From Paenibacillaceae bacterium (GTDB lineage: Bacteria; Bacillota; Clostridia; Lachnospirales; Lachnospiraceae): 64,000 bases of DNA. Below the pieces are notes generated by a model. It was not told the origin of the DNA and did not search any database. It saw nothing but the letters and a program-made list of their open reading frames with translations. Positions 1 to 16,817 of this stretch are shown here, in pieces (the first letter of the stretch is position 1; each line of letters starts with the position of its first letter). The position numbers were made by a program, and so were the translations under genes. The stretch is taken from positions 124,001 through 188,000 of the forward strand of contig SVDU01000007.1 in assembly GCA_015057705.1 (NCBI GenBank), in the 5' to 3' direction.

Positions 1-693
1 TACGGCTTGTGGAAGATAGCGGCTGATTACCCCGATTGCCCAAAGGGCATCTTTATCTGTAAAAGGTGTACACCGTTTTGAAACTGCCGCCTCAATTGCA
101 TGTGTCATTGCATCCATTCCAGTAGATGCTGTCAGATTTTTGGGCATGCTCATCATAAAGTCAATATCATTGACAGCGATACTCACCATACAATTGGTGT
201 CCACCATACACATTTTTGTGTGCTTGTCCGGATTGGTTACAATATAAAATGATGTGACTTCTGAACCTGTTCCAGCCGTTGTATTTACTGCCACAACAGG
301 TATTCCAGGTCTGTCAGATTGATTTATTCCCTCGTAATCTTCAATCCGCCCGCCGTTTTCCAGTACAATACTGACTGCCTTTGCTGTGTCAATGGCAGAT
401 CCGCCGCCAACCGCAGTCAGAAAATCAACGTTTAAAGCTTTTGCTGCTTCCAGACATTCATTAATTACTGCCACCGCAGGATTGGGCTGCACCAGATAAT
501 AGACCGCATACTCGATTCCTGCTTCCAGTAAAAATAGCCCCACTTTATCCGCTGCTCCGCTCTTAAACAGAAACTGATCTGTTACAATGAGTCCCCGTTT
601 CAACCCTTTTTTTTTAAGTTCCGCAGGCAGCATTCCAATGGATCCCCTTCCAAAAAAACTGGTTGCAACTGCATTCACTCTTAAAAGCCCCAT
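1..693 (-). CDS. Iron-type alcohol dehydrogenase, last gene of the BMC operon in view (3' end off window)
   Basis: Iron-containing alcohol dehydrogenase of the FucO/PduQ/1,3-propanediol dehydrogenase type, which reduces an aldehyde to the alcohol with NADH. The first 231 codons are visible, starting MGLLRVNAVATSFFGRG at 693 and open at the left edge. They include the nucleotide-binding GGGSAIDTAKAV, the NTTAGTGSE stretch and GMDAMTHAIEA, which carries the first metal-ligand His. It starts 12 bases after the CoA-transferase-like beta gene, so it is probably cotranscribed with the shell genes. In metabolosomes this enzyme regenerates NAD+ for the aldehyde dehydrogenase; I infer the same job here. 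The substrate could be acetaldehyde or (methylthio)acetaldehyde. Confidence 0.92.
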   Translation of the reverse strand, partial: MGLLRVNAVATSFFGRGSIGMLPAELKKKGLKRGLIVTDQFLFKSGAADKVGLFLLEAGIEYAVYYLVQPNPAVAVINECLEAAKALNVDFLTAVGGGSAIDTAKAVSIVLENGGRIEDYEGINQSDRPGIPVVAVNTTAGTGSEVTSFYIVTNPDKHTKMCMVDTNCMVSIAVNDIDFMMSMPKNLTASTGMDAMTHAIEAAVSKRCTPFTDKDALWAIGVISRYLPQAV

Positions 694-705
694 AGTAAAC
701 TCTCC

Positions 706-1431
706 CTAAAATTCTATATTTCTGAAATCACCCGGGTCGATCCGTTTTAATACAGAAAGCTCATTTTTAGTTGGAGACGGGGTGATTGTGATTCGTGAGT
801 ATTTAACAGGAAATCCGGTGTTATCCTGTACTTCCTTAAGAGATGAAGTTTCGTGTATGGTATCCAGAACCAGTTCTCCATTTTCCATTTTAAAGATGCA
901 AAGAGGAGTTACAATCCGGTCTACATTTCCTTTTGTTGTTATGAAATCCACCTGGTTTACAAAAGTCCGTTTATTATGCTTTGTTCTCCAGATAACAGCC
1001 CGCTTTGCAGTCGGTATCAGGACTGCACTTCCTGCACCTCCCGGAAGCCTGACTTTGGGTTTCTGGTAATTACCGATGACTGACGCATTCACATTGCCCC
1101 TTAAATCAAACTGGACACCGCTTAAAAATGCCATATCAAGCCCTCCTCTCATGGATAAGTCAAATACCTCCATAAGAGGAAAGCAGGATCTTGCACCATC
1201 TAACAATTCACTGCCTGCGCTGGTATATTTTTTAAGCTTTCTGGGGGACGGATCGACTCCTCCCGGTATGTTTAAATGCACAGCATGGGGAGCATGAAGT
1301 TCCTTAGCAAGAAGCACCGCAATCATTGGCATATGGGAAGACACTCCGTGAAATACTTTATCTCCATCCTGAATCATGCGTGCCATTGCGCACACCATAA
1401 TGTCACAGATCCGGTTATTTCTTTCCATCAT
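706..1431 (-). CDS. CoA-transferase-fold beta subunit (GctB/IpdB-like), catalytic Glu apparently absent
   Basis: Beta subunit of the class I CoA-transferase fold, most like glutaconate CoA-transferase subunit B; 241 aa. The reading frame extends further upstream, but GGAGG lies five bases before the ATG at 1431, so translation most likely begins MMERNNRICDIM and overlaps the alpha gene by 17 bases. Conserved blocks include GGVQ-type FLSGVQFDLRGNVNASVIG and the C-terminal NTGFP and IDPGDFR. Where GctB has its catalytic Glu in an ESG motif, this protein reads LNIPGGVDPSP with no Glu. This resembles IpdAB, a CoA-transferase-fold hydrolase that lacks that Glu, so transferase activity should not be assumed. 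Its place in a BMC operon suggests an acyl-CoA substrate. Confidence 0.8.
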   Translation of the reverse strand: MMERNNRICDIMVCAMARMIQDGDKVFHGVSSHMPMIAVLLAKELHAPHAVHLNIPGGVDPSPRKLKKYTSAGSELLDGARSCFPLMEVFDLSMRGGLDMAFLSGVQFDLRGNVNASVIGNYQKPKVRLPGGAGSAVLIPTAKRAVIWRTKHNKRTFVNQVDFITTKGNVDRIVTPLCIFKMENGELVLDTIHETSSLKEVQDNTGFPVKYSRITITPSPTKNELSVLKRIDPGDFRNIEF

Positions 1432-2254
1432 TTTTTCCTCCCCAGCCTCTGCGGTCCGCCTTTTCATATGCCGAAAGATAAACGACCAGACCCTCCTGAT
1501 CCTTAATCTCCTTAAATCTGCCAATGTCTTTTGCGTCAATATCATAGTTTCCCACGCAGGAACAAGGTGTCGCACCTTTTGCCGCATGAACCACTCCACC
1601 AACCAGGAAATGGGGGATGTCCGCTTTCTTCGTACCACTGGAGAATAAAGAACCAGGAACAATATGTTCTGCTGTAAGAATCACACTTTTTGCGGCTCTG
1701 GAAAGCAGGACATCCTCAAACAGCGGACCTGCGATTCTTGCATTGCCATCCTCATCTGCTTCCTGGACATGAATCACTGCCACATCTGGTCGAATTGCTT
1801 TTACCACCGTAACTATTTCATTGGTAAATGGATCCTGTATCCTGGTAAAATAGTCATTTTCTTCAATCAAATCGCTGACTGTCAGACCTTTTACCGGCAT
1901 AAAGCCAATTCCATAGCTGGCTGCCCGAAGTGCAGAAATAACGGTATAGCAGGCATGCTCATTTCCTTTTACCCGTCCGCTTTCCACTGCCTTTCTGTAA
2001 TGCATTGCCAGTGAAAATTCACTTTCATAGCTGATAAACCCGGCATCTACACTGGTTACGCATTCTCCCAGGCACAGCATATCCACATCCATTGCGCCCG
2101 CAGTTTTCACCAGTTTTAAATTACTCTTTCTCTGACGTACCAGTTCTCTGATAAAAGCCATAGGAGCGCGGTGAAGCACATTCCCGCCAATCCCCAGAAC
2201 TGCCCCGTCACTGACCAGGGCTGCCGCTTCCTGCATCGATATAATTTTGCTCAT
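1415..2254 (-). CDS. CoA-transferase-fold alpha subunit (GctA/IpdA-like)
   Basis: Alpha subunit of a class I CoA-transferase-fold heteromer, 279 aa, starting MSKIISMQEAAALV. It has the glycine-rich GIGGNVLHRAP near residues 21-31 and a GctA-like middle section (FISYESEFSLAMHYRKAVESG). The 3' end overlaps the beta gene, as is usual for subunits made in equal amounts. It lies 26 bases downstream of the CoA-disulfide-reductase-like gene in the same operon. In this setting it could act on the acyl-CoA made by the compartment, moving CoA or hydrolysing it; that is inference. Confidence 0.85.
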   Translation of the reverse strand: MSKIISMQEAAALVSDGAVLGIGGNVLHRAPMAFIRELVRQRKSNLKLVKTAGAMDVDMLCLGECVTSVDAGFISYESEFSLAMHYRKAVESGRVKGNEHACYTVISALRAASYGIGFMPVKGLTVSDLIEENDYFTRIQDPFTNEIVTVVKAIRPDVAVIHVQEADEDGNARIAGPLFEDVLLSRAAKSVILTAEHIVPGSLFSSGTKKADIPHFLVGGVVHAAKGATPCSCVGNYDIDAKDIGRFKEIKDQEGLVVYLSAYEKADRRGWGGKNDGKK

Positions 2255-2280
2255 GAACTTCCCCTTTCCATCCTGTTCCC

Positions 2281-3615
2281 CTACTTTGCCGCATTACATG
2301 CAATTTGTATGGCATCCCAGACGCCTGCAAACGGAGGCGCATAAATAAGGTCCGTCATTCCCAATTCTTTCGTTGTCATCTTGCAGTGAATGGCGACGGC
2401 AAATACATCCGCCCGGAGAACTGCCCCTTTTTCTCCGCAGGTCTGGGCACCAAGAATACGTTTGGTTCCCTTTTCATAGATCAGCTTAATTGTAATAGGG
2501 GTAGGATCAGGATAGTAAGCCGGATGATCATTCACCGTAACAAGCAGCGTATTATAATCCACAGAGAGACGTTTTGCATCGGCTTCACTCATGCCGGTCC
2601 GCCCCAGTTCCAGCCCGCATACTTTAACAGCCGCAGAGCCCAGTGCTCCCTGGAATACTTCACTGCCTCCTGCCAGATTTGTTCCAGCAATTCTTCCGCA
2701 TTTATTTGCAACAGTTCCAAGAGCTAGATAGCTGTTTTCATTTAAAACTTCATGATAGACCAGAATGCAGTCACCTGCTGCATAAATTTCGGGTATGGAA
2801 GTTCTCATTTGCCGGTCTACGACTATTGCTCCGTTTTTCCCTCTCTCTATTCTGGTGCCCTTTAGAAATTCTGTACAGGGTCTTACACCAGCTGCCACAA
2901 TCACTAAATCTGCATCATAGCTTCCTTTATTCGTAATTACGCGATTGACATACAGACCGTCGCCTTCAAACGCCTCCACCTTTTCATTGACATGAAGCTT
3001 TACCCCCTGCTTTAACAGTTCCTCCTGGGCAGGCACAGTCATTTCTTCATCAAACGATGCCAGAATTCTGGAGGCCGTTTCTATCATTCGTACGTTTTTA
3101 CCTATATGTAAAAAAGCCTCGGCGCATTCTACACCAATGTAGCCCCCTCCTACGATAACTACATTCCGGATCTTTTCCATTTTGCAATATTCCTTTAAAA
3201 AGATTCCGTCTTCCATATTTTTTAATGCATGGACTCCCATCAGCTCTCTGCCGGGAAAAGGAGGAATTACTGCCTCTGCCCCCACTGCAATCATCAGCTT
3301 ATCATAAGCGTCCTCAAACTCTCTGCCAGATTCCAGATCCCTTACCATAATCCGTTTTTTTCCGGCATCAACTCCTATCACCTCATGCCTTAAAAACGTT
3401 TCTATCCCCATCTGATCAAAGGCCTGGCGGCTGCGGGCAATCATTTTTCTATAATCCTCGTTAAAGTCTCCCACATAATAAGGCAGCCCGCACGCACCAT
3501 AGGATAGGAATCCGCCCTTTTCGTATACGGTTATCTGAATATCAGAATTCATCCTGCGTATCTTGGATGCGGCACTCATGCCTGCCGCTACTCCTCCAAT
3601 AATAATAATCTTCAT
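2281..3615 (-). CDS. FAD-dependent CoA-disulfide reductase / NADH oxidase-like protein
   Basis: Pyridine-nucleotide-disulfide oxidoreductase, 444 aa. The N-terminal FAD site is IIIGGVAAGMSAASKIRR. The single redox Cys lies in SYGACGLPYYVGD at about residue 43, the signature of CoA-disulfide reductases and NADH oxidases. A second dinucleotide-binding site (VIVGGGYIGVECAEA) is near 153-167, and AAGDC near 280 is the second FAD contact. The C-terminal dimerisation domain is present and there is no rhodanese domain. Such enzymes reduce CoA disulfide or persulfides, or oxidise NADH. In this operon it might keep the CoA pool reduced or recycle NAD+. It is not a usual metabolosome component. Confidence 0.85.
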   Translation of the reverse strand: MKIIIIGGVAAGMSAASKIRRMNSDIQITVYEKGGFLSYGACGLPYYVGDFNEDYRKMIARSRQAFDQMGIETFLRHEVIGVDAGKKRIMVRDLESGREFEDAYDKLMIAVGAEAVIPPFPGRELMGVHALKNMEDGIFLKEYCKMEKIRNVVIVGGGYIGVECAEAFLHIGKNVRMIETASRILASFDEEMTVPAQEELLKQGVKLHVNEKVEAFEGDGLYVNRVITNKGSYDADLVIVAAGVRPCTEFLKGTRIERGKNGAIVVDRQMRTSIPEIYAAGDCILVYHEVLNENSYLALGTVANKCGRIAGTNLAGGSEVFQGALGSAAVKVCGLELGRTGMSEADAKRLSVDYNTLLVTVNDHPAYYPDPTPITIKLIYEKGTKRILGAQTCGEKGAVLRADVFAVAIHCKMTTKELGMTDLIYAPPFAGVWDAIQIACNAAK

Positions 3616-3638
3616 AAATTTTCCCCCATCAGGTTATA

Positions 3639-4751
3639 TCAGGTTATATCAGCTATTTCCCGCTCTGCTGATTCCATTGCTTTCCTGGCCGATAATTCTC
3701 CTGTAAAAGCCTGGTAGATTTTTTGATAAAGGATTGCATTTTTATCCCCTGACCGGTTTATATTAGGGAGAGGTCTTGCAGACTCAATCATCATTTTCTG
3801 CACCGGAAACCATGGAGCGTTACCTTTCTGATAGCTTGATTCTCTTACAGGAGCACCGCTTACTCTTCCTGTTTTACAGTCAACGACAGAAGAACGCAGA
3901 TATCTTAAAAAATCGTTGGCAGCTTCCCGTTTCCTGCTTTCTGAGCAGATGGCAAAGGACCACGTCACATTCCATGCAGTTGAAAATGTACTGAAGCCTA
4001 AATCCTCCGGCTCCAGACATCCATTCTCCCATACAGCTCCAAGCTGCCCGCTCCATGTCACTGCCATGACAGCCTTTTTCATACGGATGGCATCAGCAAT
4101 TTTTTCATTTGCAAAGTGTTCCGTACCTTCCAGTGCATATGACTTACATTCACAGTAAGACTGAAGCCCTCTTATGGCTTTTTCATCTCCACAGACCGGA
4201 TTTCCCTCTGAATTATAAGCATCTCCTCCATACATGCGGAGAAAAGGAAGTGCATCGGTAAATATTTCTGAGGAATCAGCCTTCATTGCCACTGCCTTTC
4301 TTCCATATACTGCCGCTAAAGCTTTTGCTGTATCCAGGTATTCCTGTGGCGTGATTACAGGTTCCAGTTCTTTTCCAAGCACCTTATAAATCAGACTCTT
4401 ACGGTATACAATCATATGACCGTCACAGAAAGAAGGAGATAAGTATGCCTTGTCCTGATAGCTCATTTCCCTGACAATGGCAGGAAGAATATCCTCCTCT
4501 TCCAACTCAAGTTCTGCCAGATAGCCTTTTTCTACAAAATCAGACAGCCATAAATGACCCGCTGCCATAATAATGTCATAATCGCCGCTTCCGTTAAGGG
4601 ATTCCATCATTTTGTCATAATACTCTGACCACGGTACAATTTGAAATTCCACGTTTTCCTTATATCCGTTAAGAATCCCCAATCTCTTATCCAGATAACC
4701 ATTTACTGCCGGATCAGCAACTGCAAGAACCTTTAATATACCCTGCTCCAT
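3639..4751 (-). CDS. Substrate-binding-protein-like protein lacking a signal peptide, inside the BMC operon
   Basis: Resembles family 1 extracellular solute-binding proteins (370 aa): a short N-terminal beta strand (GILKVLAVADPAVNGYLD), then an SBP-like body with GSGDYDIIMAAGHLW and AVMAVTWSGQLGAVW. An upstream in-frame start exists, but GGAGGGAGGG eight bases before 4751 supports MEQGILKVLAV. No hydrophobic signal sequence or lipobox is present, so it should be cytosolic. It is placed between the EutN-like gene and the flavoprotein gene, away from the real ABC transporter at 12.9-16.6 kb, which has its own lipoprotein. Its role is unknown; a soluble ligand-binding or scavenging function is possible. 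Confidence 0.7.
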   Translation of the reverse strand: MEQGILKVLAVADPAVNGYLDKRLGILNGYKENVEFQIVPWSEYYDKMMESLNGSGDYDIIMAAGHLWLSDFVEKGYLAELELEEEDILPAIVREMSYQDKAYLSPSFCDGHMIVYRKSLIYKVLGKELEPVITPQEYLDTAKALAAVYGRKAVAMKADSSEIFTDALPFLRMYGGDAYNSEGNPVCGDEKAIRGLQSYCECKSYALEGTEHFANEKIADAIRMKKAVMAVTWSGQLGAVWENGCLEPEDLGFSTFSTAWNVTWSFAICSESRKREAANDFLRYLRSSVVDCKTGRVSGAPVRESSYQKGNAPWFPVQKMMIESARPLPNINRSGDKNAILYQKIYQAFTGELSARKAMESAEREIADIT

Positions 4752-4770
4752 ATTAATACCCTCCCTCCTT

Positions 4771-5031
4771 TTATTTCCCCAATTGAGGAGGTGCATCTAC
4801 AATTCCTACAACAAAAGCATCAACCGGTGCTGACCGGTCAAGGGCAAACTGGGTCGTATTGTCCGTGGTTACCAGCACCAGTTCCCCGATTCCGGCTCCC
4901 ATGGTATCAGCCGCCACAAATATATTCTTTTTTTCTCCGTAATACGGTTCCACTAAAAGGAGCTTAAACCCCACCAGATTTCTGCACTTTCTTGTAGAAA
5001 CCACAGTCCCCATAATTGTTCCTAATATCAT
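4771..5031 (-). CDS. BMC-P pentameric vertex protein (EutN/CcmL family)
   Basis: 86-aa EutN/CcmL family protein that would cap the vertices of the polyhedral shell as a pentamer. It opens MILGTIMGTVVSTRKC, carries GFKLLLVEP, and the GAGIGELVLVTT region matches the conserved core. Its start overlaps the pduL stop by four bases (ATGA), indicating translational coupling. This is the only pentamer gene in view; many metabolosome loci carry two or three, so others may lie beyond the left edge or elsewhere. Confidence 0.93.
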   Translation of the reverse strand: MILGTIMGTVVSTRKCRNLVGFKLLLVEPYYGEKKNIFVAADTMGAGIGELVLVTTDNTTQFALDRSAPVDAFVVGIVDAPPQLGK

Positions 5032-5684
5032 CTGGCATCTTCCTTTCTAATGGTGACCCACTGCCCCTGTCTGAGCAAAAATGCATTGGCATCATCTGTA
5101 TCTACATGTAAATCAAGACGGCTCTCACTGGTAATCCGGACAAGAACACGTCCAAGCACTCCTTCTTTTACCCCGGGAACCACCACATTCACCCGATCTC
5201 CATCTGATACGCCAAACCAACTGGCTTCTTCCGGAGTCATATGAATGTGACGGTCGGCAATGATTACCCCCTCTTTCAAAGAGACTTCTCCTACAGGTCC
5301 CTTAAGCAGGATTCCCGGAGTTTCTTTTAAATCTCCGGAAGTCCTGACAGGGGGATTAGTGCCCAGGATTCTGCAGTCACTAAATGCCAGCTCAACCTGA
5401 CTTTGTTTCCTTTCGGGTCCCAGAATCCGGACTTTCTTAAACGACCCTTTGGGGCCGCAGACTTCAACCTGTTCTTTGCATGCAAACTGACCGGGCTGGC
5501 TTAATGATTTTTCTGGGGTAAGCTGATATCCTGCTCCAAACAGTGTTTCCACGTGATCTCTTGATAAATGTACATGTCTTGCCGAAATGCCAACCGGAAC
5601 CTGATAGGGATCAGTACTTAACCGGTTCCAGTGTTCCAGAACCATTTCTGTTATTTTATGTATCAGTTCTTCCCTGTTATCCAT
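5028..5684 (-). CDS. pduL: Phosphate propanoyltransferase PduL with N-terminal encapsulation helix
   Basis: PduL-type phosphotransacylase, 218 aa, which converts acyl-CoA plus phosphate to acyl-phosphate and recycles CoA inside the lumen. Two PduL domains are visible with the zinc-binding histidine motifs GISARHVHLSRD (about 33-44) and DRHIHMTPEEA (about 143-153). The first ~20 residues (MDNREELIHKITEMVLEHWN) form an amphipathic helix followed by a linker, as in encapsulation peptides. It lies 14 bases downstream of a BMC-H gene. The acyl group would be acetyl or (methylthio)acetyl under the pathway proposed here. Confidence 0.95.
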   Translation of the reverse strand: MDNREELIHKITEMVLEHWNRLSTDPYQVPVGISARHVHLSRDHVETLFGAGYQLTPEKSLSQPGQFACKEQVEVCGPKGSFKKVRILGPERKQSQVELAFSDCRILGTNPPVRTSGDLKETPGILLKGPVGEVSLKEGVIIADRHIHMTPEEASWFGVSDGDRVNVVVPGVKEGVLGRVLVRITSESRLDLHVDTDDANAFLLRQGQWVTIRKEDAR

Positions 5685-5698
5685 CAGACACAGATTCC

Positions 5699-5998
5699 TT
5701 ATTTAATCAGCGGGATAATTCCTGCTATGGAATTATGGGGTCTTGGAATTACATGAACAGCCACCAGTTCTCCCACTCTGGAAGCAGCCTCTTCTCCTGC
5801 TTCTACCGCTGCTTTTACAGCTCCCACATCTCCCTGTACCATAACGGTTACCAGACCTGAGCCAATCTTTTCTGTTCCCACCATTTCAACATCTGCTGCT
5901 TTTAACATGGCATCTGCCGCTTCAATGGATGCGGTCAGACCTCTTGTTTCAACCATTCCCAGTGCCAGCATGCCCTTCTTAACTGATATCTCTGCCAT
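5699..5998 (-). CDS. BMC-H shell protein (PduA/EutM-like), copy 4
   Basis: 99-aa hexameric shell protein with one BMC domain, starting [17 protein letters not shown]. It has the typical core [35 protein letters not shown], and ends [19 protein letters not shown]. An upstream in-frame extension is possible, but AGGAGGAGAAGG just before 5998 supports this start, which lies within the 3' end of the preceding BMC gene (20-base overlap). It is very similar to copy 2 (6396-6674), so the two are probably recent paralogues forming the bulk shell facets. Confidence 0.95.
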
Positions 5999-6362
5999 TT
6001 CCTTCTCCTCCTGTTTTATCTTCATTTTCATGTTCCTTATCTGTCTCAGTTTTTGATTCTTGCTCATGTCTGTCTATCATATTTAGCAGTTTCCACACCT
6101 CATGATGCGGGTTATTAATGGAGACACATACTTTTATGTTGCTCTCGCCCACGATCCGACCGGAATCTCTGGCCGCTTCCATTGCCGCATAAACTGCTGA
6201 TGTCTCGCCTGCCAGCACAGTATGGCACATCCTGCCGCCCAGTGTCTTATGACAGCTTACAATTTCCACCTGCGCAGCTTTCAGCGCCTGATCAACCACA
6301 AAAACTGTATTGGCGTAATAATTTATTTCCAGTACTCCTATGGCGTTTCCCTTTCTTTTCAT
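5979..6362 (-). CDS. Divergent BMC-H shell protein with a charged C-terminal tail, copy 3
   Basis: 127 aa. The first ~90 residues are a BMC domain ([27 protein letters not shown], then [18 protein letters not shown]). The rest is a hydrophilic, Lys/Glu-rich tail (roughly residues 98-127, including [19 protein letters not shown]). Usual BMC-H proteins are 90-100 aa, so the tail is extra. It may face the lumen or cytosol, or bind enzymes, which is inference. The 3' end contains the ribosome site of the next BMC-H gene, and the stop codon falls 20 bases inside that gene. Confidence 0.88.
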
Positions 6363-6395: not shown

Positions 6396-6674
6396 CTATT
6401 TTGCTTTTGGCAGAATTTTGTCTATATCCTGATGTGGTCTGGGGATCACATGGACAGCTACCAGCTCTCCGATTCTGGAAGCCGCCGCTTCCCCCGCTTC
6501 GGTAGCCGCCTTAACTGCCCCGACTTCCCCGGTTACAATAACAGTCACCAGCCCGGAACCGATCTTTTCCGTCCCCACCAGTTCCACGTCTGCCGCCTTT
6601 AACATTGCATCTGCCGCTTCAATGGAGGCAATTAATCCCCTTGTTTCTACTAAACCGATTGATGTGGATGCCAT
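6396..6674 (-). CDS. BMC-H shell protein (PduA/EutM-like), copy 2
   Basis: 92-aa single-domain BMC-H protein: [33 protein letters not shown]..., ending [19 protein letters not shown]. The length and the [19 protein letters not shown] block are typical of the main facet hexamer of metabolosomes. It has an AGGAGG-like site before 6674. It forms a tandem with three other BMC-H genes and most resembles the copy at 5699-5998. Confidence 0.96.
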
Positions 6675-6689: not shown

Positions 6690-7019
6690 CTAATCATTTA
6701 TATTTTCTTCCGTGAATGTTACCTTTGTTATGCGGGCCAATGCTTTTGTTCCTTCGTATGGCCTTTCGATCATCCGGACCAGGACTTGTTCGGGGCTGTT
6801 AAGTTCAAGCGCTGCCCGCCTTGCTGCTTCACAGGCCTCCTTTACATCATCCACCCCACCCTCAAATTTCACCTGGGCAGTAAGAGGAATAAACGCTGCT
6901 GCATCCTTGGGATTTATGGTATCAATGCCAATAATTTTCACGTCTGCAGCCTTGCACGCTTTATCCATGGCGTACAAAACCGCTCCATACCCTGCACATT
7001 CCAAAAAGCCAATTGCCAT
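6690..7019 (-). CDS. BMC-H shell protein, variant sequence, copy 1
   Basis: 109 aa, start MAIGFLECAGYGAVLYAMD at 7019, supported by GGGAGG seven bases upstream; the open frame continues upstream but without a ribosome site. A single BMC domain with AADVKIIGIDTINPKDAAAF and VKEACEAARRAAL. The C-terminal part (about 88-109, ALARITKVTFTEENIND) differs from the PduA-like copies. The divergent pore region suggests a hexamer with different permeability. It is the first shell gene after the aldehyde dehydrogenase. Confidence 0.9.
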   Translation of the reverse strand: MAIGFLECAGYGAVLYAMDKACKAADVKIIGIDTINPKDAAAFIPLTAQVKFEGGVDDVKEACEAARRAALELNSPEQVLVRMIERPYEGTKALARITKVTFTEENIND

Positions 7020-7030
7020 ATGTACCTCCC

Positions 7031-9442: not shown

Positions 9443-9468
9443 AACGATCCCTCCAAAGTTCAAACGAC

Positions 9469-9526: not shown

Positions 9527-9560
9527 TGTTTTTATGTGTTTTATTTTGTTTTGTTTTTAT
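9527..9560. promoter_or_regulatory. Tandem TGTTTT repeats between the BMC operon and the deoR gene (candidate DeoR operator)
   Basis: TGTTTT units (AAAACA on the other strand) begin at 9527, 9537, 9547 and 9552; the first three are exactly 10 bases apart, one helical turn. DeoR-family regulators often bind short tandem repeats of this kind. The array sits between the BMC promoter and the deoR promoter. A similar array occurs upstream of the transporter promoter at 16779-16817. Confidence 0.55.
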
Positions 9561-9575
9561 TTCGATCATTTTTCC

Positions 9576-9604
9576 TTTACATTTTGTCAAAAAAAATATA
9601 CAAT
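9576..9604 (+). promoter_or_regulatory. Predicted promoter of the DeoR-family regulator gene
   Basis: TTTACA (9576-9581), 17-base spacer, TACAAT (9599-9604), giving a start near 9611 and a leader of about 70 bases before the ATG at 9684. It is divergent from the BMC promoter and shares the TGTTTT array with it. Confidence 0.6.
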
Positions 9605-9683
9605 ATACATATATGTCACTGTATTCTTATGGTTTCATACTGCATTTCAAAAAATTTGTTCGCAGAAAGAAAGGAACATGCCT

Positions 9684-10451
9684 ATGTTAGCAGTAACAAG
9701 GAAAGCCAAAATCAAAGATATTATATTAGAAAAGAAAAGCGTTACAGTAACGGAATTATCTAAAATATTTTCCGTAACCGAGGAAACGATACGCCGTGAT
9801 TTAAAGCAGCTGGAAGACGACGGTTTCCTTACCAGAACTTACGGAGGTGCATTCATACAGGACGGGGTCGAGAACAATGTGGAGCTTACCATAAGGGAAA
9901 CCGCATATATGGAAAGTAAGAAGGCCATTGCTAAAAAATGCCTCTCATTGATACATAACGGCGATTCCATCTTTTTAGATGCCTCCACAACCGCTCTGCA
10001 GATTGCCCGTGAACTTCAGGGAATGCGCCTGACAGTGGTTACCAATTCTCTTCTCATTATCAATGAGCTTCAGGATAAAGAAGATATACGTCTTATAACC
10101 CTGGGAGGCTCCTATGCGCCGAGAGATAAGGCATTTGTCGGCAATACAGCAATCCGGAATTTAGAGTCTTTCTATCTGGATAAAACCTTTATGTCCTGCA
10201 GAAGCATATCCATGGAACACGGAATTACCGATTCCAACGAATCAATTGCAGCCATACGGCAGACTCTGCTCACACGCAGCAATCATATCTATCTGGTAGC
10301 GGACCATTCCAAATTCAATAAAACCTCTTTCATCACCATATCAAGCTTTGATGCAATTACCGGATTGATCACCGACAAAAATCTTGACAGCCAGTGGACC
10401 GAGTATCTGACTAAAAATAATGTTACCCTGTATGAGGCCATCGACGCCTAG
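9684..10451 (+). CDS. DeoR-family sugar-phosphate-responsive regulator
   Basis: 255 aa from 9684; AAGGA lies eight bases upstream, which favours this ATG over the one at 9678. The N-terminal winged helix (about 1-55) includes VTVTELSKIFSVTEETIRRDL and the family end motif LEDDGFLTRTYGGA. The effector domain has DASTTALQIARELQ, VVTNSL, LGGSYAPRDKAFVG and VADHSKFNK, typical of sensors of phosphorylated sugars. It lies between and divergent from the BMC operon, and convergent with mtnA, so it most likely controls both. A phosphorylated 5-deoxy- or 5-methylthio-pentose would be the natural signal. Confidence 0.9.
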   Translation: MLAVTRKAKIKDIILEKKSVTVTELSKIFSVTEETIRRDLKQLEDDGFLTRTYGGAFIQDGVENNVELTIRETAYMESKKAIAKKCLSLIHNGDSIFLDASTTALQIARELQGMRLTVVTNSLLIINELQDKEDIRLITLGGSYAPRDKAFVGNTAIRNLESFYLDKTFMSCRSISMEHGITDSNESIAAIRQTLLTRSNHIYLVADHSKFNKTSFITISSFDAITGLITDKNLDSQWTEYLTKNNVTLYEAIDA

Positions 10452-10494: not shown

Positions 10495-11601
10495 TTACCG
10501 TGACTCACCTTTTAACGCTTCCTGTTTCCTTCTGAATATCTCTTTCAGCGACTCACTATATGGCTCTCTTGCGATTCCATACTCCGTCACAATTCCTGCA
10601 ATCAGATCATGATCCGTAACATCAAATGCAGGATTAAACACCTTCACTCCTTCAGGAGCCATTGGTTTTTCATACCACATCTCCACCACTTCCGCTGCAG
10701 GACGTTCTTCAATGTGGATTTCCTTACCGGTCGGTGTGTTCAGATCAATTGTAGAGGTCGGTGCACAGATATACATGGGCACGCCGTAGCGCTTGGCAGC
10801 CAGTGCCACCATGGAAGTTCCGATTTTGTTTGCAGTATCTCCATTGGCCGCCACTCTGTCACACCCTACAAACACTGCATTGACCCAGCCCTTACGCATA
10901 ACAGAAGCGGACATATTATCACAGATAACGGTTACATCAAGTCCGGATTCCTTTAACTCAAAGGATGTCAGTCTTGCTCCCTGGAGCAACGGCCTGGTTT
11001 CGTCTGAGAAAATGCGAAAGTGATACCCCCGTTCCTGTCCCAGATACATAGGTGCCGTTGCGGTACCATACTTTACAGTCGCAAGCTGCCCTGCATTGCA
11101 GTGCGTCAGCAGACCATCTCCTGGTTTTACAAGGGTAAGACCATATTCTCCAATCGTCTTACACACCCAGATATCCTCTTCTCTAATTTTTACAGCCTCT
11201 TTATGCAATTCCTCTACGATCTCAGAAACAGGCTTGTCTTTATTGTCTAAAACAATTCCTTCCATTCGTTTTAAAGCCCAGGAAAGATTGACTGCCGTGG
11301 GACGGGCTGAATCAAGATAATCCTTTGCTTTCCTGAATTTCTGGTAAAACTCTTCAAAATCAGGAGCCTCAATCTCTCTTGCTGCCAGATAAATGCCAAT
11401 TGCTGCCGCCACTCCGATCGCAGGCGCCCCTCTTACCTGAAGAAGATAAATAGCACTCCAGATATCTTCCTGTTTTGTTAATGAAAGGATTACCGTATTA
11501 TACGGAAGCTGTGTCTGATCTATAATAACCAGGGCGTGGTTTTCTTCATCAAGTGCCACTGTGTCATAATCCATAATGGATTTCTTTTTGTCTTCACTCA
11601 T
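10495..11601 (-). CDS. mtnA: S-methyl-5-thioribose-1-phosphate isomerase
   Basis: 368 aa aldose-ketose isomerase of the eIF2B-related MtnA family: converts 5-methylthioribose-1-phosphate (or 5-deoxyribose-1-phosphate) to the ribulose-1-phosphate. Signature residues are visible: LLQVRGAPAIGVAAA near the N-terminus, the catalytic Cys in THCNAGQLAT and the catalytic Asp in GCDRVAANGDTANKIGT, then YICAPTSTID. It is the last gene of the importer-mtnK-mtnA operon. No later Met-salvage genes (mtnW, X, B, D) appear in the window, so its product probably goes to the aldolase of the BMC rather than back to methionine. Confidence 0.96.
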   Translation of the reverse strand: MSEDKKKSIMDYDTVALDEENHALVIIDQTQLPYNTVILSLTKQEDIWSAIYLLQVRGAPAIGVAAAIGIYLAAREIEAPDFEEFYQKFRKAKDYLDSARPTAVNLSWALKRMEGIVLDNKDKPVSEIVEELHKEAVKIREEDIWVCKTIGEYGLTLVKPGDGLLTHCNAGQLATVKYGTATAPMYLGQERGYHFRIFSDETRPLLQGARLTSFELKESGLDVTVICDNMSASVMRKGWVNAVFVGCDRVAANGDTANKIGTSMVALAAKRYGVPMYICAPTSTIDLNTPTGKEIHIEERPAAEVVEMWYEKPMAPEGVKVFNPAFDVTDHDLIAGIVTEYGIAREPYSESLKEIFRRKQEALKGESR

Positions 11602-11621
11602 GTTTTTGCCTTTCCCGTCTT

Positions 11622-12851
11622 TTATGATTGGTACTTACCTACTGCCTCTTTAATCGCCGTTAAATAGTCTGCGCCGCAGCGGAACGTATCCCGGTTCATA
11701 ATATATTTTTTTGCCAGCGTGATTACAATTCGCTCTGCTCTGGTGCGTTTTGTTTCATCCGGAATGGTTGTAATATCAATTACATTGGCCATGCCCACAA
11801 TCCGGCGGATTGATTCCAGTCCGGCAACCCCTGCTGTATCAGAAAGGATCCGCTCCAGATACCACTCTTTAAATCCCGGTACTTTTGCCATTCTGTCAGT
11901 GGCATATTCATCAAATACTCCATTATATTTTTCAATAAAAAGATCCACCACATCGGAAATGGTCTGAAGGCACCATGAGCAGAACTCTGCTTTCTTTTCT
12001 TCATCAGAAATGACAGCATCTCCATTGCACCATGCAAAGAATATATTGGCTATTACATTGCCGATGTCGTAACCCATTGGGCCAAAAAATGCAAACTCCG
12101 GATCAAAAATAAATGTGTGCTCCTTATTAATAAATACAGATCCTGTATGCAAATCTCCATGAATCAGTGACTGTGCATGATTCATAAATTCAAACTTCAG
12201 TTTTGCAGCTTCTAAGTGCAGTGCCTGATCCTCATAGAGTTCTTCCCTTACAAACTCCTGATTGGGTAAGAACACATTGTTCCTGTGGTTATAGTCAACA
12301 AAAGGCTCACTGTACACCAGGTCTTCGCTGATCTCACATAAGTCCGGATTGATAAAGCTCTTTACCAGCTCCTTTTTTTCCTTATGCCCCATTACCACAT
12401 CCGTGGTTCGCAAAAGGGAATTTACCATAAATGTGGTTACATGATCTGCAAACAGAGGGTAAATTTCATGATTGATCAGGCCGGTACGCATCATGGTATG
12501 TCCGGTCATATCTTCCATGATCATGGCGCACATCACACCATCGTAGAGATAAACCTTAGGAACCAGTCCCGGCGCGTACATCTCCTGAATACCCAGAATC
12601 TTAGCCTCTATTCTTCCTCTGTCCGTGGAAATATGCATATCAGCAGAGATTCGAAGAGCCTCACCTGCCTGTTTTACAATAATTGATTTTCCGCTTTTTC
12701 CATCCTTTACACGAAACACATAATTTAAGTTTCCGTCACCAATTTCCTTACATTCCAGCTCGGCTCCTTTGTCAAAATAGGAAAGCTTTTCCTGTACGTA
12801 ATCTGGAACTTCTGGTGCCTTCATTAAAAAATAACTGTCGTATTTAGACAT
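11622..12851 (-). CDS. mtnK: 5-methylthioribose kinase (possibly also 5-deoxyribose)
   Basis: 409 aa, ATP-dependent kinase giving the 1-phosphate of 5-methylthioribose. The ATG at 12851 (MSKYDSYFLMKAPEVP) has AAGG eight bases upstream; a GTG three codons earlier is less well placed. Motifs: GDGNLNYVFRVKD (glycine-rich loop), LIHGDLHTGSVFINKEHTF (catalytic loop, HGD) and IFDPEFAFFGPMGYDIG (the DPE metal motif of MtnK). It is the fourth gene of the importer operon, 21 bases before mtnA. No encapsulation-like extension is visible, so it should act in the cytosol. Confidence 0.96.
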   Translation of the reverse strand: MSKYDSYFLMKAPEVPDYVQEKLSYFDKGAELECKEIGDGNLNYVFRVKDGKSGKSIIVKQAGEALRISADMHISTDRGRIEAKILGIQEMYAPGLVPKVYLYDGVMCAMIMEDMTGHTMMRTGLINHEIYPLFADHVTTFMVNSLLRTTDVVMGHKEKKELVKSFINPDLCEISEDLVYSEPFVDYNHRNNVFLPNQEFVREELYEDQALHLEAAKLKFEFMNHAQSLIHGDLHTGSVFINKEHTFIFDPEFAFFGPMGYDIGNVIANIFFAWCNGDAVISDEEKKAEFCSWCLQTISDVVDLFIEKYNGVFDEYATDRMAKVPGFKEWYLERILSDTAGVAGLESIRRIVGMANVIDITTIPDETKRTRAERIVITLAKKYIMNRDTFRCGADYLTAIKEAVGKYQS

Positions 12852-12888
12852 TTTTGTCACCTTCCCCGTTCATTTTATAATTCTCTGC

Positions 12889-13908
12889 TTAGTTTGCATT
12901 CTTTGTTTTTCCGCTGGCATAGGTCATGGCAAGTGCAATTGCCAGGACTGCGCCCTTAATTATGTTCATTGCATAATACGGAACGGACATCATAATAAGT
13001 CCATTTTCCAGCATACCTACTAAAACCGCCCCTGCAAACGTTCCAAAAGCATTGGCCTTACCAGCCCCTAATACGGAAAAGCCAATATAAGCTGCGCATA
13101 CAGACGGCATTAAATATGCATCTCCGGCAGAGATCTGTGCTGTTCCCACACGTGCTGCCAGGCAGATGCCGCCAATGGAAGCAAAGGTTGCTGACAGAAA
13201 ATAGGCCAGAATCTTATACCTTGCCACCGGAATCCCCGAAAGCTCGGCTGCCTCAGGGTTGCCTCCTACCGCATACATATATCTGCCATGCTTTGTAAAA
13301 TTCAGAAAGAAATAAGCAAACAGCACGACACAAACCATGATGATGATCAGCCACGGTTCTTTTCCCAAAGCCCTGAATGCCTCGGGAACAAGACCTGGCG
13401 CCTGAGTTCCATCCGCCCTGGTCATGCGCTCCGTAATGGCGCCGCCCTTTGAATAAGTCATGGAAACACCCTGATACATAAACATAACGGAAAGTGCAGC
13501 AACCATATCTGGTATCTTAAACTTAACAATCAGAATGCTGTTAATTACCGCAACGCTTAAACAGATTAAGACGGTAAGAATTATCGAAACGCCGATGTTG
13601 ATGTTATGCCATACAAAACATGTCATTACAAATACATTTGCCAGCTGCGCCGTAGCTCCTATGGAAAGATCCATACCATTAACCGCCAGTGCAAAAGTAA
13701 GACCAATCGCAATAATTGTGGTAATCGACACGGCACGTAAAATTGTGATCATATTGGATTGGGTCAGAAACATGCTTGTCCCCGTTTCCTTACTCCAGTT
13801 ACCAAACGTAAACAGAACAAACAGGATTACCATTGTTGCAATCGTACCCCATCTTGTTACAAAATCCCCTAAATTACCTTTCTTTTTTACCTTCTCTGCC
13901 CCAGACAT
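12889..13908 (-). CDS. Ribose-type ABC transporter permease (RbsC-like)
   Basis: 339 aa from MSGAEKVKKKGNLGDF; GGGAGG lies seven bases upstream, and the start comes one base after the ATPase stop codon. It has about nine to ten hydrophobic segments and the BPD_transp_2 family motifs LTFALAVNGMDLSIGA and GNPEAAELSGIPVARYK. It forms the membrane channel for a pentose-like solute with the neighbouring ATPase and lipoprotein. Clustering with mtnK and mtnA points to methylthioribose or 5-deoxyribose as the solute, which is inference. Confidence 0.93.
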   Translation of the reverse strand: MSGAEKVKKKGNLGDFVTRWGTIATMVILFVLFTFGNWSKETGTSMFLTQSNMITILRAVSITTIIAIGLTFALAVNGMDLSIGATAQLANVFVMTCFVWHNINIGVSIILTVLICLSVAVINSILIVKFKIPDMVAALSVMFMYQGVSMTYSKGGAITERMTRADGTQAPGLVPEAFRALGKEPWLIIIMVCVVLFAYFFLNFTKHGRYMYAVGGNPEAAELSGIPVARYKILAYFLSATFASIGGICLAARVGTAQISAGDAYLMPSVCAAYIGFSVLGAGKANAFGTFAGAVLVGMLENGLIMMSVPYYAMNIIKGAVLAIALAMTYASGKTKNAN

Positions 13909-13909
13909 A

Positions 13910-15421
13910 TCATTTACCTCCCGTCGAATAATAAAGCAGTTCCTTCTCATCCGTATCCGCTGCTTTTAGCTCCCTGATGATCTCTCCGTCATACATGACA
14001 TAGATCCGGTCACAGATACTTAATATTTCCTGAAATTCGCAGGTTGCATAGATGATGCCTTTCCTTTTGGCAGCTAGTCCTTCAATCAGCTCATACATAT
14101 CCTGTTTGGCACCTACATCAATTCCCTTTGTGGGCTCATCGAAAATATAAACTTCCGAATCTTTATTCAGCCACTTTCCAACTACTACCTTCTGCTGATT
14201 TCCTCCGGATAAAAGAGAAACCACCTGATTTTCAGACGGTGTCTTGATCCCAAGATCACGGATCATACTTCTTGCATCCTCTTTCTCCCGTTTTTTATTG
14301 ACAACCGATAATTTGTTGGTATATTTCTCCATAGCCGCCACGGAAATGTTGGATACTACCGTATCTGAGATTAAAACGCCTTCCTTCCTGCGTTCCTCCG
14401 GAACCAGAGCCAGACCGTTTTTTACCGCCTGCGTGGGACCTTTTGCACGAATTACTTTTCCCCGGAGCTTCATGGTACCGCTTTTAAGCTGATAGGCAGA
14501 AAACAACGTCTTACACAGTTCTGTCTTTCCGGCTCCTACCAAACCTGCCACACCTACGATTTCCCCTTCACGTACGGTTATGGTTATATTCTTTACCTTG
14601 CCATCTTTCTCGGTAAGGTTCTCTATTTCAAGGAGCGGTTCTCCGATTTCACATGCTTTTTTAATATAATTATCCTCATAGCAGCGTCCCAGCATATATT
14701 CCACCAGGGTATTTACCTCCAGTTCTTTCGTAAGAGGCAGATTTGTTACCAGCATTCCATCCCTCATGATGGTGATGCTTTCACAAATTTCGTATAGCTC
14801 ACTCAGCCTGTGAGAAATAAATACCACGCCAACATTTTCTTTTGCTAATTCCCGGACAACCCTGAAAAGTTCCAGTGTCTCGGAATTAGAAAGAGGTGCT
14901 GTAGGTTCATCTAATATGAGAAAACGACACTTTTCCACCACACACCGTGCAATCAAAACCATCTGCTTTTGTGCAAGTGTCAGCGCAGATACCGGTTTAT
15001 TAATATCGACTGCCACACTCAACTTTTCAAGTACTGCTTTTGCCGCCCGTTTGATTTCCTTCCAATGTACAACCTGTTTTTTCCCCATTTTATTGACCAG
15101 GGTGTTAAACATCACATTTTCAGCTACAGTCAGATATGGAATTAAAGCTGTGTCAACTTCCTGAAACACAATTTCTATTCCCAGATTTTTTGCATCTTTG
15201 GGGCACCGGATTTCCACCGGTTCCCCTCCGACACTTATTTGTCCTGTATAATGTGTGTTAACACCGGCAAGCACTTTCATCAGCGTAGACTTGCCGGCAC
15301 CATTGGCTCCAACGAGCGCATGAATGCTGCCACTTGTCAAGGTAAAATCAACTCCATTCAGAGCCTTAACCCCTGGAAACTCTATGGATATATCCTTCAT
15401 TTCAAGCTTTATCTCGTTCAT
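13910..15421 (-). CDS. Ribose-type ABC transporter ATPase with two nucleotide-binding domains (RbsA-like)
   Basis: 503 aa, starting MNEIKLEMKDISIEFPG. Two ABC cassettes: the first has Walker A GANGAGKSTLMK, a degenerate signature LTLAQKQM and Walker B FLILDEPTAPL; the second has GLVGAGKTELCK and LLSGGNQQKVV followed by EVYIFDEPTKGID. This tandem layout is typical of carbohydrate importers of the RbsA/MglA type. It energises uptake with the permease at 12889-13908 and is preceded by AAGGAAGAG. Confidence 0.95.
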   Translation of the reverse strand: MNEIKLEMKDISIEFPGVKALNGVDFTLTSGSIHALVGANGAGKSTLMKVLAGVNTHYTGQISVGGEPVEIRCPKDAKNLGIEIVFQEVDTALIPYLTVAENVMFNTLVNKMGKKQVVHWKEIKRAAKAVLEKLSVAVDINKPVSALTLAQKQMVLIARCVVEKCRFLILDEPTAPLSNSETLELFRVVRELAKENVGVVFISHRLSELYEICESITIMRDGMLVTNLPLTKELEVNTLVEYMLGRCYEDNYIKKACEIGEPLLEIENLTEKDGKVKNITITVREGEIVGVAGLVGAGKTELCKTLFSAYQLKSGTMKLRGKVIRAKGPTQAVKNGLALVPEERRKEGVLISDTVVSNISVAAMEKYTNKLSVVNKKREKEDARSMIRDLGIKTPSENQVVSLLSGGNQQKVVVGKWLNKDSEVYIFDEPTKGIDVGAKQDMYELIEGLAAKRKGIIYATCEFQEILSICDRIYVMYDGEIIRELKAADTDEKELLYYSTGGK

Positions 15422-15465
15422 GACGTCTCTTCCTTACCTATGTAATGACTGTGAAATGAATCCTG

Positions 15466-16644
15466 CTACTCTACATAAAGCCCTTTAATCACATCGGTAA
15501 ACAGGGCTCCTTTCGGATCTTCGGCATCACCCCAGCCATCTACAATCTTGCCAAGATCACCCATGGTGGTCTCTGCACTCAGCTGCGTTGTTACGATGTT
15601 GCTGGCATTTAAGTCAAAATAGCTTGGAGTCTCTGCTCCTAATAACTTAAGAGCAAGAAGGCGGGTATCCACGATTCCAATCAGCTTTGGATCAACTGCC
15701 GCAGTTGATTTCCACACCTGAGGATTTTTAACCATCAGCTGGATATCATCATTGGATACGTCAATGGTATACATAGGAATATCTGTTCTGCCTGCATCAT
15801 TAAGTGCCTGCAGAACTCCTTTGGCAAGTTCGTCATAGCATCCCCAGATTGCATCTACGGATCCTTCCGGATACTTGGGAAGAATTGCCGCTGTCTTATT
15901 GGTCATATCTCCTCTTGCATTGGCAGAGTCAGATGGTGCAATTACTTCCAGAGTCTTAATCTTTCCTTCGTCTTCCAGCTTTGCATAAATCTCATTACGC
16001 CTGTCCAGAGGAGGAATTCCAGGGCCCATAAATGTTTTCAGAACCTTCATGGGATATTTGCCTCCCTTTGCCTCAAATTCCTTCATCATATAGCCCAGTG
16101 ATAGTTCTGCAAGTGCCTGATCATTCTGAGCGGTTGATGTTACACCATCCAGAAGAAGACCGTTTGCATCTCCGCCTTTAAATGGCATGGTATCAAACGT
16201 AACAACTGCCATTCCCTTATCTCTTGCAGGCTTTAGCATATCGTAAGAATAAGAAAGCTGTCCATGAGATACAATCAAACCGTCATAACCTTTTGCAATT
16301 ACCTGCGCTACCGTCTCTTGTGCTTTTGCATCGTCCCCATCTGTAACAAACGTATCCACAGTCCACCCAAATTTTTTGCCTTCTGATACACAGCCATCGA
16401 GGAATTGCTGTGTATGATCGCCGGCAGCTAAATTTCTGACTACTGCTACTTTCTTACCTTTCAGAGAACCGGTAGCCTGTGCGTCTGCTACCTTCTGTGC
16501 TGCTGTTGTGGTTTCTTCTGTTTTTGAAGCTTCTGTTTTTTTCTCTGTTTCTGCAGCCGTAGTTGCTGCTGTTGTCCCGCTGCCGCATCCCGTTGCTGAT
16601 AAAATCAACGTTGCCGCAAGGACCATTGCTAACCCCTTTTTCAT
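15466..16644 (-). CDS. Sugar-binding lipoprotein of the ABC importer (RbsB/periplasmic-binding type 1)
   Basis: 392 aa. Lipoprotein signal MKKGLAMVLAATLILSATGC with the modified Cys at residue 20, then a Thr/Glu/Ala-rich linker (~21-55), then a periplasmic-binding type 1 domain (VAVVRNLAAGDHTQQFLDG, LIVSHGQLSYSYDML, DAIWGCYDELAKGVLQAL). It captures the sugar outside the membrane for the permease and ATPase that follow. AAGGAGG lies before the ATG. First gene of the importer-mtnK-mtnA operon. Confidence 0.95.
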   Translation of the reverse strand: MKKGLAMVLAATLILSATGCGSGTTAATTAAETEKKTEASKTEETTTAAQKVADAQATGSLKGKKVAVVRNLAAGDHTQQFLDGCVSEGKKFGWTVDTFVTDGDDAKAQETVAQVIAKGYDGLIVSHGQLSYSYDMLKPARDKGMAVVTFDTMPFKGGDANGLLLDGVTSTAQNDQALAELSLGYMMKEFEAKGGKYPMKVLKTFMGPGIPPLDRRNEIYAKLEDEGKIKTLEVIAPSDSANARGDMTNKTAAILPKYPEGSVDAIWGCYDELAKGVLQALNDAGRTDIPMYTIDVSNDDIQLMVKNPQVWKSTAAVDPKLIGIVDTRLLALKLLGAETPSYFDLNASNIVTTQLSAETTMGDLGKIVDGWGDAEDPKGALFTDVIKGLYVE

Positions 16645-16719
16645 AAAAATAAACCTCCTTAAAATGAAAAAATATAGTTTATTGCTCCGGACACACCCCG
16701 ATATGTCCTTTATGTGGAA

Positions 16720-16748
16720 ATTGTAGCATATTATTTTTGATTTTTCAA
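16720..16748 (-). promoter_or_regulatory. Predicted promoter of the importer-mtnK-mtnA operon
   Basis: Minus strand: TTGAAA (16743-16748), 17-base spacer, TACAAT (16720-16725), with the start predicted near 16713 and a leader of about 70 bases. The TGTTTT array starts 31 bases upstream of the -35 box, almost the same distance as at the BMC promoter. Confidence 0.65.
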
Positions 16749-16778
16749 TATTTTTATTTATTTTTATTGATTTATTTT

Positions 16779-16817
16779 TGTTTTAAGTTGTTTTATTGTT
16801 TACTTTGTGTTGTTTTT
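16779..16817. promoter_or_regulatory. TGTTTT repeat array upstream of the importer operon (candidate DeoR site)
   Basis: TGTTTT occurs at 16779, 16789 and 16811, with a weaker TGTTTA at 16797. The surrounding DNA is very T-rich on the plus strand. It matches the array at 9527-9560 in unit sequence, 10-base phasing of the first two units, and distance from the promoter. Confidence 0.45.

Follow-up and report, generated by a model that had tools for sequence, protein, structure and literature searches.

Gene content and organization of the locus

The 64,000-nucleotide window analysed here (C2:124001-188000 of a 4.53 Mb genome, completeness 98.16%) comes from a Lacrimispora-like bacterium, and at its left end it carries genes for a protein-shelled organelle, a bacterial microcompartment (BMC), beside genes for a sugar importer and for members of the methylthioribose kinase (MtnK) and methylthioribose-1-phosphate isomerase (MtnA) families. 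The nearest named relative found, among the best 80 of 551 relatives retained from a search of named genomes, is Lacrimispora xylanisolvens (locus L086), with a class II aldolase 99% identical to that of the window. An aldolase 98% identical to the window's also stands on a contig labelled Paenibacillaceae (L087), probably a mislabelled or mixed metagenome-assembled genome.

Gene spacing divides the locus into two leftward operons (Table 1), separated by a DeoR-family gene on the plus strand. The right-hand one (16644 to 10495) encodes the importer binding protein, ATPase and permease, then MtnK and MtnA. The other starts at 9463 with the aldolase and continues with a CoA-acylating aldehyde dehydrogenase (ALDH), four BMC-H shell proteins, the phosphotransacylase PduL, a BMC-P protein, a solute-binding-like protein, a CoA-disulfide reductase, CoA-transferase subunits A and B and an iron-containing alcohol dehydrogenase (Fe-ADH); it runs past the window to DhaK and DhaL, after which comes, by eye, an iron-type binding protein. 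The first-pass annotation had each of its named genes in the right place but described one leftward operon where spacing gives two, and its account did not take in the CoA-transferase subunits, the CoA-disulfide reductase, the binding-like protein, which has no apparent signal peptide, or DhaK and DhaL past the left edge.

MtnK, MtnA, the ALDH, PduL and the CoA-disulfide reductase all score above curated cut-offs. BMC-H and BMC-P proteins over cut-off, a CoA-acylating ALDH and a phosphotransacylase are features that the locus shares with BMC metabolosomes. At 17469-19502 a gene that by eye resembles ammonium transporters, together with a small gene for a possible PII partner, diverges from the importer operon.

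Table 1. Features of the two operons and their surroundings, in window coordinates (cut-offs in brackets).
Feature	Position	Strand	Evidence and remarks
DhaK (339 aa) and DhaL (222 aa)	outside window, left stretch L009:16862-18500, after Fe-ADH, operon end		Pfam/NCBIfam
Fe-ADH, 3' part cut at window edge, full 392 aa	1..693	-	
CoA-transferase subunit B	706..1662	-	PF01144 66.7 bits; relatives mostly about 240-250 aa, so true start probably further in
CoA-transferase subunit A	1415..2254	-	PF01144 75.4 bits; best solved relative 5mzw, glutaconate CoA-transferase family, 125 bits
CoA-disulfide reductase	2281..3615	-	NF007123 574 bits (458); TIGR03385 471.9 bits, under cut-off (578.8)
Solute-binding-protein-like, no apparent signal peptide	3639..4796	-	PF13416 42 bits
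BMC-P (EutN/CcmL) shell vertex protein	4771..5031	-	PF03319 82.7 bits (25)
PduL-type phosphotransacylase, N-terminal amphipathic segment	5028..5684	-	PF06130 253.3 bits (25); NF011652 267.5 bits (209)
BMC-H shell protein	5699..6067	-	PF00936 106.7 bits (24.5)
BMC-H shell protein, divergent	5979..6362	-	PF00936 53.7 bits (24.5)
BMC-H shell protein	6396..6674	-	PF00936 103.7 bits (24.5)
BMC-H shell protein, divergent	6690..7067	-	PF00936 54.1 bits (24.5)
CoA-acylating ALDH (PduP/EutE type), N-terminal amphipathic segment	7031..8452	-	NF011927 653.7 bits (403); best solved relatives 5jfl 437 bits, 4c3s 419 bits
Class II aldolase, ~98-residue C-terminal tail with amphipathic end, predicted luminal cargo	8462..9463	-	PF00596 169.8 bits (22.2)
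Two overlapping AAAACANNNNAAAACA repeats upstream of BMC operon, candidate DeoR-type operator	9527..9552	-	
DeoR-family regulator	9534..10451	+	GlpR/AgaR-type, under equivalog cut-offs; start near 9678 if like the L086 relative (257 aa)
MtnA, methylthioribose-1-phosphate isomerase family	10495..11601	-	TIGR00512 407.8 bits (279); 2yrf 326.6 bits
MtnK, methylthioribose kinase family	11622..12860	-	TIGR01767 407 bits (275); 2olc 256 bits
Ribose-type ABC importer permease	12889..13950	-	best NF007067, under cut-off
Sugar (ribose/arabinose-type) ABC importer ATPase	13910..15421	-	best NF008442, under cut-off
Importer substrate-binding lipoprotein	15466..16644	-	weak D-allose/ribose-type matches under cut-off
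AAAACANNNNAAAACA repeat upstream of importer operon	16779..16794	-	

Recurrence of the gene set with the aldolase

The aldolase search covered 299 genomes of the family, of which 108 matched at 1e-30; among the 123 places found, neighbourhoods were covered for the window's own and the next 82 (80 loci), the 40 weaker places being left out. Neighbours, here and in the named genomes, were mapped by blastp with the window proteins and the Escherichia coli fucose/rhamnose proteins, in stretches that end at 20 kb or at contig ends. A FastTree phylogeny was built from 163 aldolases (the window, 160 loci and two second copies), with near-copies among its rows (window/L086/L087, L044/L091, L049/L118, L055/L131); E. 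coli FucA and RhaD had proved too remote in an earlier tree (branch length 10) and were omitted from this one.

The window's side of this tree has 89 rows, with MtnA in 70 of them and MtnK as well in 51 of those 70; FucI, RhaA, RhaB or RhaD accompany 0 of the 89, and a glycyl-radical enzyme three (L057, L151, L165). The facing side (74 rows, support 99) was picked as the largest without Mtn genes, so that their absence there is by choice; 49 of its 74 rows have FucI/RhaA/RhaB/RhaD (24) or a glycyl-radical enzyme (37). In an earlier, quick IQ-TREE of 125 rows the fucose/rhamnose side was the starred group of 34 rows, with no Mtn.

Shell genes are present in 37 of the 89 window-side loci, and in 32 of these 37 Mtn genes lie within the locus, both in 31 and MtnA only in L121. 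Both genes lie just past the fetched end in L098 and L100 (L170, L171); for L088 and L095 the genome has its importer and MtnK on a different contig (L172 and L169, respectively), which presumably abuts the first; and L090 is the one shell-bearing locus whose genome gives no MtnK match. After dereplication at 95%, shell genes remain in 31 of 80 loci, 27 of the 31 with Mtn in the locus. Sought in related genomes, the gene set thus recurs in many genera, and because it does so the adjacency of MtnK/MtnA and the BMC genes is not a matter of chance.

The arrangements vary around a common plan. Lacrimispora xylanisolvens, L. celerecrescens (L089) and Eubacteriales S15M_Sa_66 (L092) have the same order from the importer to DhaK, where the stretches stop; Anaerocolumna aminovalerica (L091) has mtnK-mtnA through Fe-ADH on a short contig, and in Proteocatella sphenisci (L093) importer through Fe-ADH form a single same-strand run with MtnA 37 bp before the aldolase. 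Importer-mtnK-mtnA, aldolase, ALDH, shell, PduL, CoA-disulfide reductase and CoA-transferase are also carried by Clostridium bovifaecis, two Paenibacillus (L097, L126), Bacillus sp. P14.5, Calidifontibacillus, Salipaludibacillus and two Gracilibacillus, some of them also without the binding-like protein; no Fe-ADH was detected in this group, in stretches that stop 0 to 2 kb past the last recognised gene. A second architecture, found in Lachnospiraceae, Oscillospiraceae and other Clostridia, has a different order, often several BMC-P matches and sometimes RbsD/FucU-like and DhaK genes, and in four cases (L120, L122, L128, L132) the run itself includes mtnK-mtnA, flanked by CoA-transferase on one side and PduL/ALDH on the other. 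Partial loci with BMC-P only occur in Treponema (L103), where MtnA is 8 bp before PduL, and in a member of the Synergistaceae (L121), which has MtnA and, elsewhere, a kinase at 254.9 bits, under the MtnK cut-off of 275.

In Bacillaceae and Treponema some tailed mtn aldolases stand apart from a separate small shell locus (L166-L168, L174, L175), with PduL and ALDH in L168, L174 and L175 and shell genes only, among the queries, in L166 and L167; these are possibly split systems or other BMC types.

Aldolase tails and candidate targeting segments

On the Mtn side of the tree the aldolase extends at least 20 residues past its core in 37 of 37 shell-bearing loci, whereas 20 of the 52 shell-less loci have such an extension (Fisher 1e-10); after dereplication the counts are 31 of 31 and 19 of 49 (Fisher 2e-9). 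The ends of the shell-bearing aldolases have a median hydrophobic moment of 0.58, against 0.35 for untailed ones, although their median shuffle fraction is a modest 0.084. For the window the shuffle fractions are 0.04 at the ALDH N-end, 0.01 at the PduL N-end and 0.06 at the aldolase C-end, only loosely separated from the range of 0.086 to 0.82 for the other ends scored (those of MtnA and MtnK, and the N-terminus of Fe-ADH, of CoA-disulfide reductase and of the binding-like protein), and the C-ends of MtnK (0.086) and MtnA (0.118) are not far from the first three. The median lengths of MtnK (408.5 in shell and 407 in non-shell loci) and of MtnA (365 and 362) are nearly equal, so the two have no added tail, and we predict that both are cytosolic.

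Among loci with no local shell, a shell is found elsewhere in the genome for 9 of 13 tailed and 6 of 21 untailed loci, a weak difference (Fisher p 0.03) in a grouping made by eye (L142 and L147 taken as untailed despite 20 and 23 residues past the core; L141 left out), and some of these shells are of other BMC types. Several mtn-type and many fucose/rhamnose-side aldolases have a cysteine-rich linker (GCGCG or CHNCGG type) ahead of the end segment.

Other routes in the genome

The first-pass annotation had also noted that entry enzymes of the FucI/FucK type are absent from the window, and the wider search agrees. The whole genome gives no match to the fucose isomerase family (FucI), RhaA lies on another contig, paired with its own untailed aldolase (RhaD), and blastp with E. 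coli FucI, FucK, RhaA and RhaB finds nothing at the locus or in the 20 kb past the window's left edge. That edge had been singled out as the place where a fucose/rhamnose kinase and isomerase would tell against the proposal; DhaK and DhaL are there instead. No open reading frame (ORF) there or at the locus has the size of a glycyl-radical enzyme, the longest reaching 551 aa within 1-24000 and 492 aa within the left-hand 20 kb. A second BMC locus of this genome (L011:4600-19900), in which an ORF of 855 aa neighbours one that by eye resembles an activase, is probably a glycyl-radical-enzyme compartment.

A genome scan gives one match to MtnK, the window copy. The genome encodes an MTA/SAH nucleosidase; it gave no match to MtnB over cut-off and none to ARD, and an Rfam search of 1-20000 gave no match and hence no SAM riboswitch. 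Ordinary methionine salvage therefore does not explain MtnK and MtnA, and since these other routes are lacking in the genome, the BMC aldolase is the only evident consumer of their product.

A proposed pathway for 5-modified ribose

We consider it likely that the two operons form one catabolic system in which a shelled aldolase is fed with a 5-modified ribose. The imported sugar is most likely 5-deoxyribose, with methylthioribose possible. The proposal of the first-pass annotation that MtnK and MtnA feed a compartmented fuculose-type aldolase draws support from the many Bacillota that share the gene set (Spirochaetota and Synergistota have partial loci), from the single-run arrangements elsewhere, from the candidate encapsulation-type segments on the aldolase, ALDH and PduL, and from the lack both of FucI in the genome and of fucose/rhamnose matches in the 20 kb beyond the left edge. 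From this gene content we infer every reaction, its place inside or outside the shell, and the exact sugar.

The importer would take up the 5-modified ribose, which in the cytosol would be phosphorylated at C1 by MtnK and converted by MtnA to a 5-modified ribulose 1-phosphate. This would enter the protein shell, where the tailed aldolase would cleave it to dihydroxyacetone phosphate (DHAP), with either acetaldehyde or methylthioacetaldehyde as the two-carbon aldehyde released; the tailed ALDH and PduL would turn the aldehyde into acyl-CoA and then acyl phosphate, and Fe-ADH would reduce the remaining aldehyde to alcohol, recycling NAD. DrdK, DrdI and DrdA are described as converting 5-deoxyribose to DHAP and acetaldehyde, in an account that puts the equilibrium constants of such aldol cleavages typically near 1e-4 (PMC6079011). 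Retention and removal of the aldehyde within the shell would draw this unfavourable cleavage forward, and containment would also shield the cell from aldehyde toxicity.

Sequence comparisons bear on individual steps to differing degrees. The nearest solved structures to the importer binding protein (predicted model, pLDDT 83.9) are 5ulb (244 bits) and 4ry8 (88.9 bits), the latter a methylthioribose-binding protein. The aldolase is above no NCBIfam equivalog cut-off among the matches listed (25 of 31), and it is its gene context that suggests activity on 5-deoxyribulose 1-phosphate. Among solved structures Fe-ADH is closer to methanol dehydrogenase 8zrl (338 bits) and alcohol dehydrogenase 2 3owo (321 bits) than to lactaldehyde reductase 1rrm (275 bits), although in NCBIfam it matches lactaldehyde reductase best (TIGR02638, 411.8 bits, under the cut-off of 523.15); these matches would suit a short aldehyde in a loose way at most. 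For uptake of methylthioribose an ABC importer, mtrACB, has been predicted that is reported to co-occur with MtnK/MtnA (PMC3228920).

Accessory genes and the shared repeat

Among the 37 shell-bearing loci the CoA-disulfide reductase is found in 26, CoA-transferase in 25, the signal-less binding-like protein in 16 and DhaK in seven. The binding-like protein is predicted to have a MalE-type fold (mean pLDDT 90, TM 0.81 to 6dtq); by eye it has no signal peptide across 15 aligned sequences from these loci, in which PSFCDGH, W and NxTWSF stretches are near-invariant. It also occurs in two shell-less mtn loci (L133, L159), and DhaK/DhaL are also near mtn aldolases in three (L057, L143, L149), with an RbsD/FucU-like gene, which argues that these proteins have some part in the pathway. 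A scheme that would employ them all is a two-entry, sulfur-tolerant 5-deoxypentose factory, in which the aldose would enter through MtnK/MtnA and an open-chain 5-deoxyketose through DhaK/DhaL, methylthioribose would be taken through methylthioacetaldehyde to a thioether acyl-CoA, the CoA-transferase would free CoA, the CoA-disulfide reductase would keep it reduced, and a cytosolic binding protein would hold the substrate. Taken jointly, this full version is doubtful.

The AAAACANNNNAAAACA repeat has four copies in the window against 0.01 expected, for a motif chosen after looking: a general search for 16-mers common to both upstream regions turned up mainly A-rich sequences, and AAAACANNNNAAAACA was picked after seeing these. 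One of the four copies (29597) lies inside an ORF resembling NusG by eye. The repeat precedes both operons in the window, L086 and L089; in L045 it stands before the aldolase alone. Copies are also found ahead of aldolases from the fucose/rhamnose tree side (L060, L063, L064), and the repeat thus argues for a shared type of regulator and not for a substrate. The E. coli 5-deoxyribose-type pathway is described as repressed by the DeoR-family MtnR (PMC12632272).

Evidence against the proposal and alternative substrates

Several observations weigh against the pathway proposed here. The aldolase is no closer to 6btd (DrdA; 84.9 bits) than to the fuculose-type enzymes 4c24 (95.5 bits) and 1dzw (75.7 bits). 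The simple scheme has no need of DhaK/DhaL, the CoA-transferase, the CoA-disulfide reductase or the signal-less binding protein. Fe-ADH has no clear targeting segment by the shuffle-fraction measure and was detected in 11 of the 37 shell-bearing loci, several of whose stretches end soon after CoA-transferase, and three of the 37 have BMC-P matches only (L103, L108, L121). FucK-like FGGY kinases, weak at 21-25% identity, lie near three of the 89 window-side loci (L090, L128, L165). Finally, the compartment at L090:1-20996, with aldolase and ALDH 69% and 74% identical to those of the window, is in the genome that gives no MtnK match, flanked by a nucleoside hydrolase, an FGGY kinase and a D-psicose 3-epimerase-like protein (269.2 bits, cut-off 300). 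This suggests exchangeable front ends on the same kind of compartment, and the compartment may serve several ketose 1-phosphates.

The nucleoside hydrolase beside the L090 aldolase, like the ribose-type importer, would suit a pathway in which the 5-hydroxyl is kept, with ribose or another nucleoside pentose passing through an MtnK/MtnA-like pair to ribulose 1-phosphate and on to DHAP and glycolaldehyde. We regard this as unlikely. RbsK-type routes for ribose are common, and MtnK of the window is above the curated cut-off for methylthioribose kinase. Class II aldolases have been called promiscuous (PMC4207490), which would favour such a substrate, but a Bacillus thuringiensis kinase of the MtnK kind is reported to be specific for 5-deoxyribose and methylthioribose (PMC6079011).

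Were the compartment instead a PVM- or GRM5-like metabolosome for fucose/rhamnose, which MtnK/MtnA merely happen to adjoin, this would account for the aldolase superfamily and the similar shell plan, and the PVM-like type has been thought likely to have a substrate similar to that of PVM (PMC8156839). We nevertheless rejected fucose and rhamnose, as a very improbable choice, on the lack of FucI, the separate contig of RhaA with its untailed aldolase, the lack of an ORF of glycyl-radical-enzyme size in 1-24000 or the 20 kb to its left, and the position of the aldolase on a tree side where none of the 89 loci has FucI, RhaA, RhaB or RhaD. Least credible of all is that MtnK/MtnA and the importer serve methionine salvage alone and adjoin the BMC operon by chance. 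Such a neighbour is on record, in that a methylthioribose kinase of Acetobacterium woodii adjoins pduU/pduV and is called unrelated to BMC function by the authors (PMC7593272). The explanation was rejected here on the recurrence and same-run placement in other genera, the genome's lack of ARD and of MtnB over cut-off, and the AAAACANNNNAAAACA repeat before both operons. An isolated satellite elsewhere in the genome (L013:10090-11368), two small BMC-domain genes around a small GTPase-like gene (EutP-like by eye), resembles the pduU/pduV pairs of A. woodii.

Relation to known systems

The shunt to DHAP through DrdK-DrdI-DrdA (Beaudoin 2018), or MtnK-MtnA-Ald2 in E. coli, shares with the window an MtnK-type kinase, an MtnA-type isomerase, a class II aldolase, a DeoR-family regulator (E. 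coli) and, in some clusters, sugar transporters. It differs in that the window aldolase is not recognisably DrdA/Ald2-like and has a putative encapsulation-type tail; the stem 'compartment' is absent from the main texts on the shunt that were searched. GRM5 has a related tailed aldolase, a similar shell gene order, a DeoR regulator and, in some loci of the fucose/rhamnose tree side, AAAACANNNNAAAACA before the aldolase, but it is described with a glycyl-radical enzyme and acting on fucose/rhamnose (PMC4207490), whereas the window locus is without an ORF of that size. The SPU metabolosome would share the conversion of a sugar phosphate to acetaldehyde within a compartment, as proposed for the window, but is described with a DeoC-type aldolase (PF01791) and RpiB (PMC8217296); the window aldolase is PF00596 and the operon genes were placed in families other than RpiB, in comparisons that included no search aimed at PF01791 or PF02502.

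The shell itself is probably of a type already catalogued as 'PVM-like', given the class II aldolase, the DeoR regulator and more BMC-H than BMC-P. The catalogue text lists Clostridium saccharolyticum WM1 (now Lacrimispora saccharolytica) with three loci and 15 BMC-H, and the class II aldolase of the type is taken there as fucose/rhamnose-like (PMC4207490, PMC8217296, PMC8156839). In the text available, the descriptions (Axen 2014, Sutter 2021) mention no MtnK or MtnA, and an alcohol dehydrogenase in one locus only. No link between a microcompartment and the 5-deoxyribose/methylthioribose pathway was found in a literature search that had most subscription papers and all preprints outside it; the link of a PVM-like organelle to activation by MtnK/MtnA is apparently new, although it may have been mentioned before. 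With this coupling, an orphan type of bacterial organelle acquires a food source that can be put to the test. If it is correct, the fucose/rhamnose role assumed for the PVM-like type is wrong for part of it, an uncharacterised organelle type that is widespread in Bacillota and represented by partial loci in Spirochaetota and Synergistota is a machine that consumes wastes of the 5-deoxyribose/methylthioribose type, and the substrate of this orphan compartment could be tested by a single growth experiment in a cultured strain.

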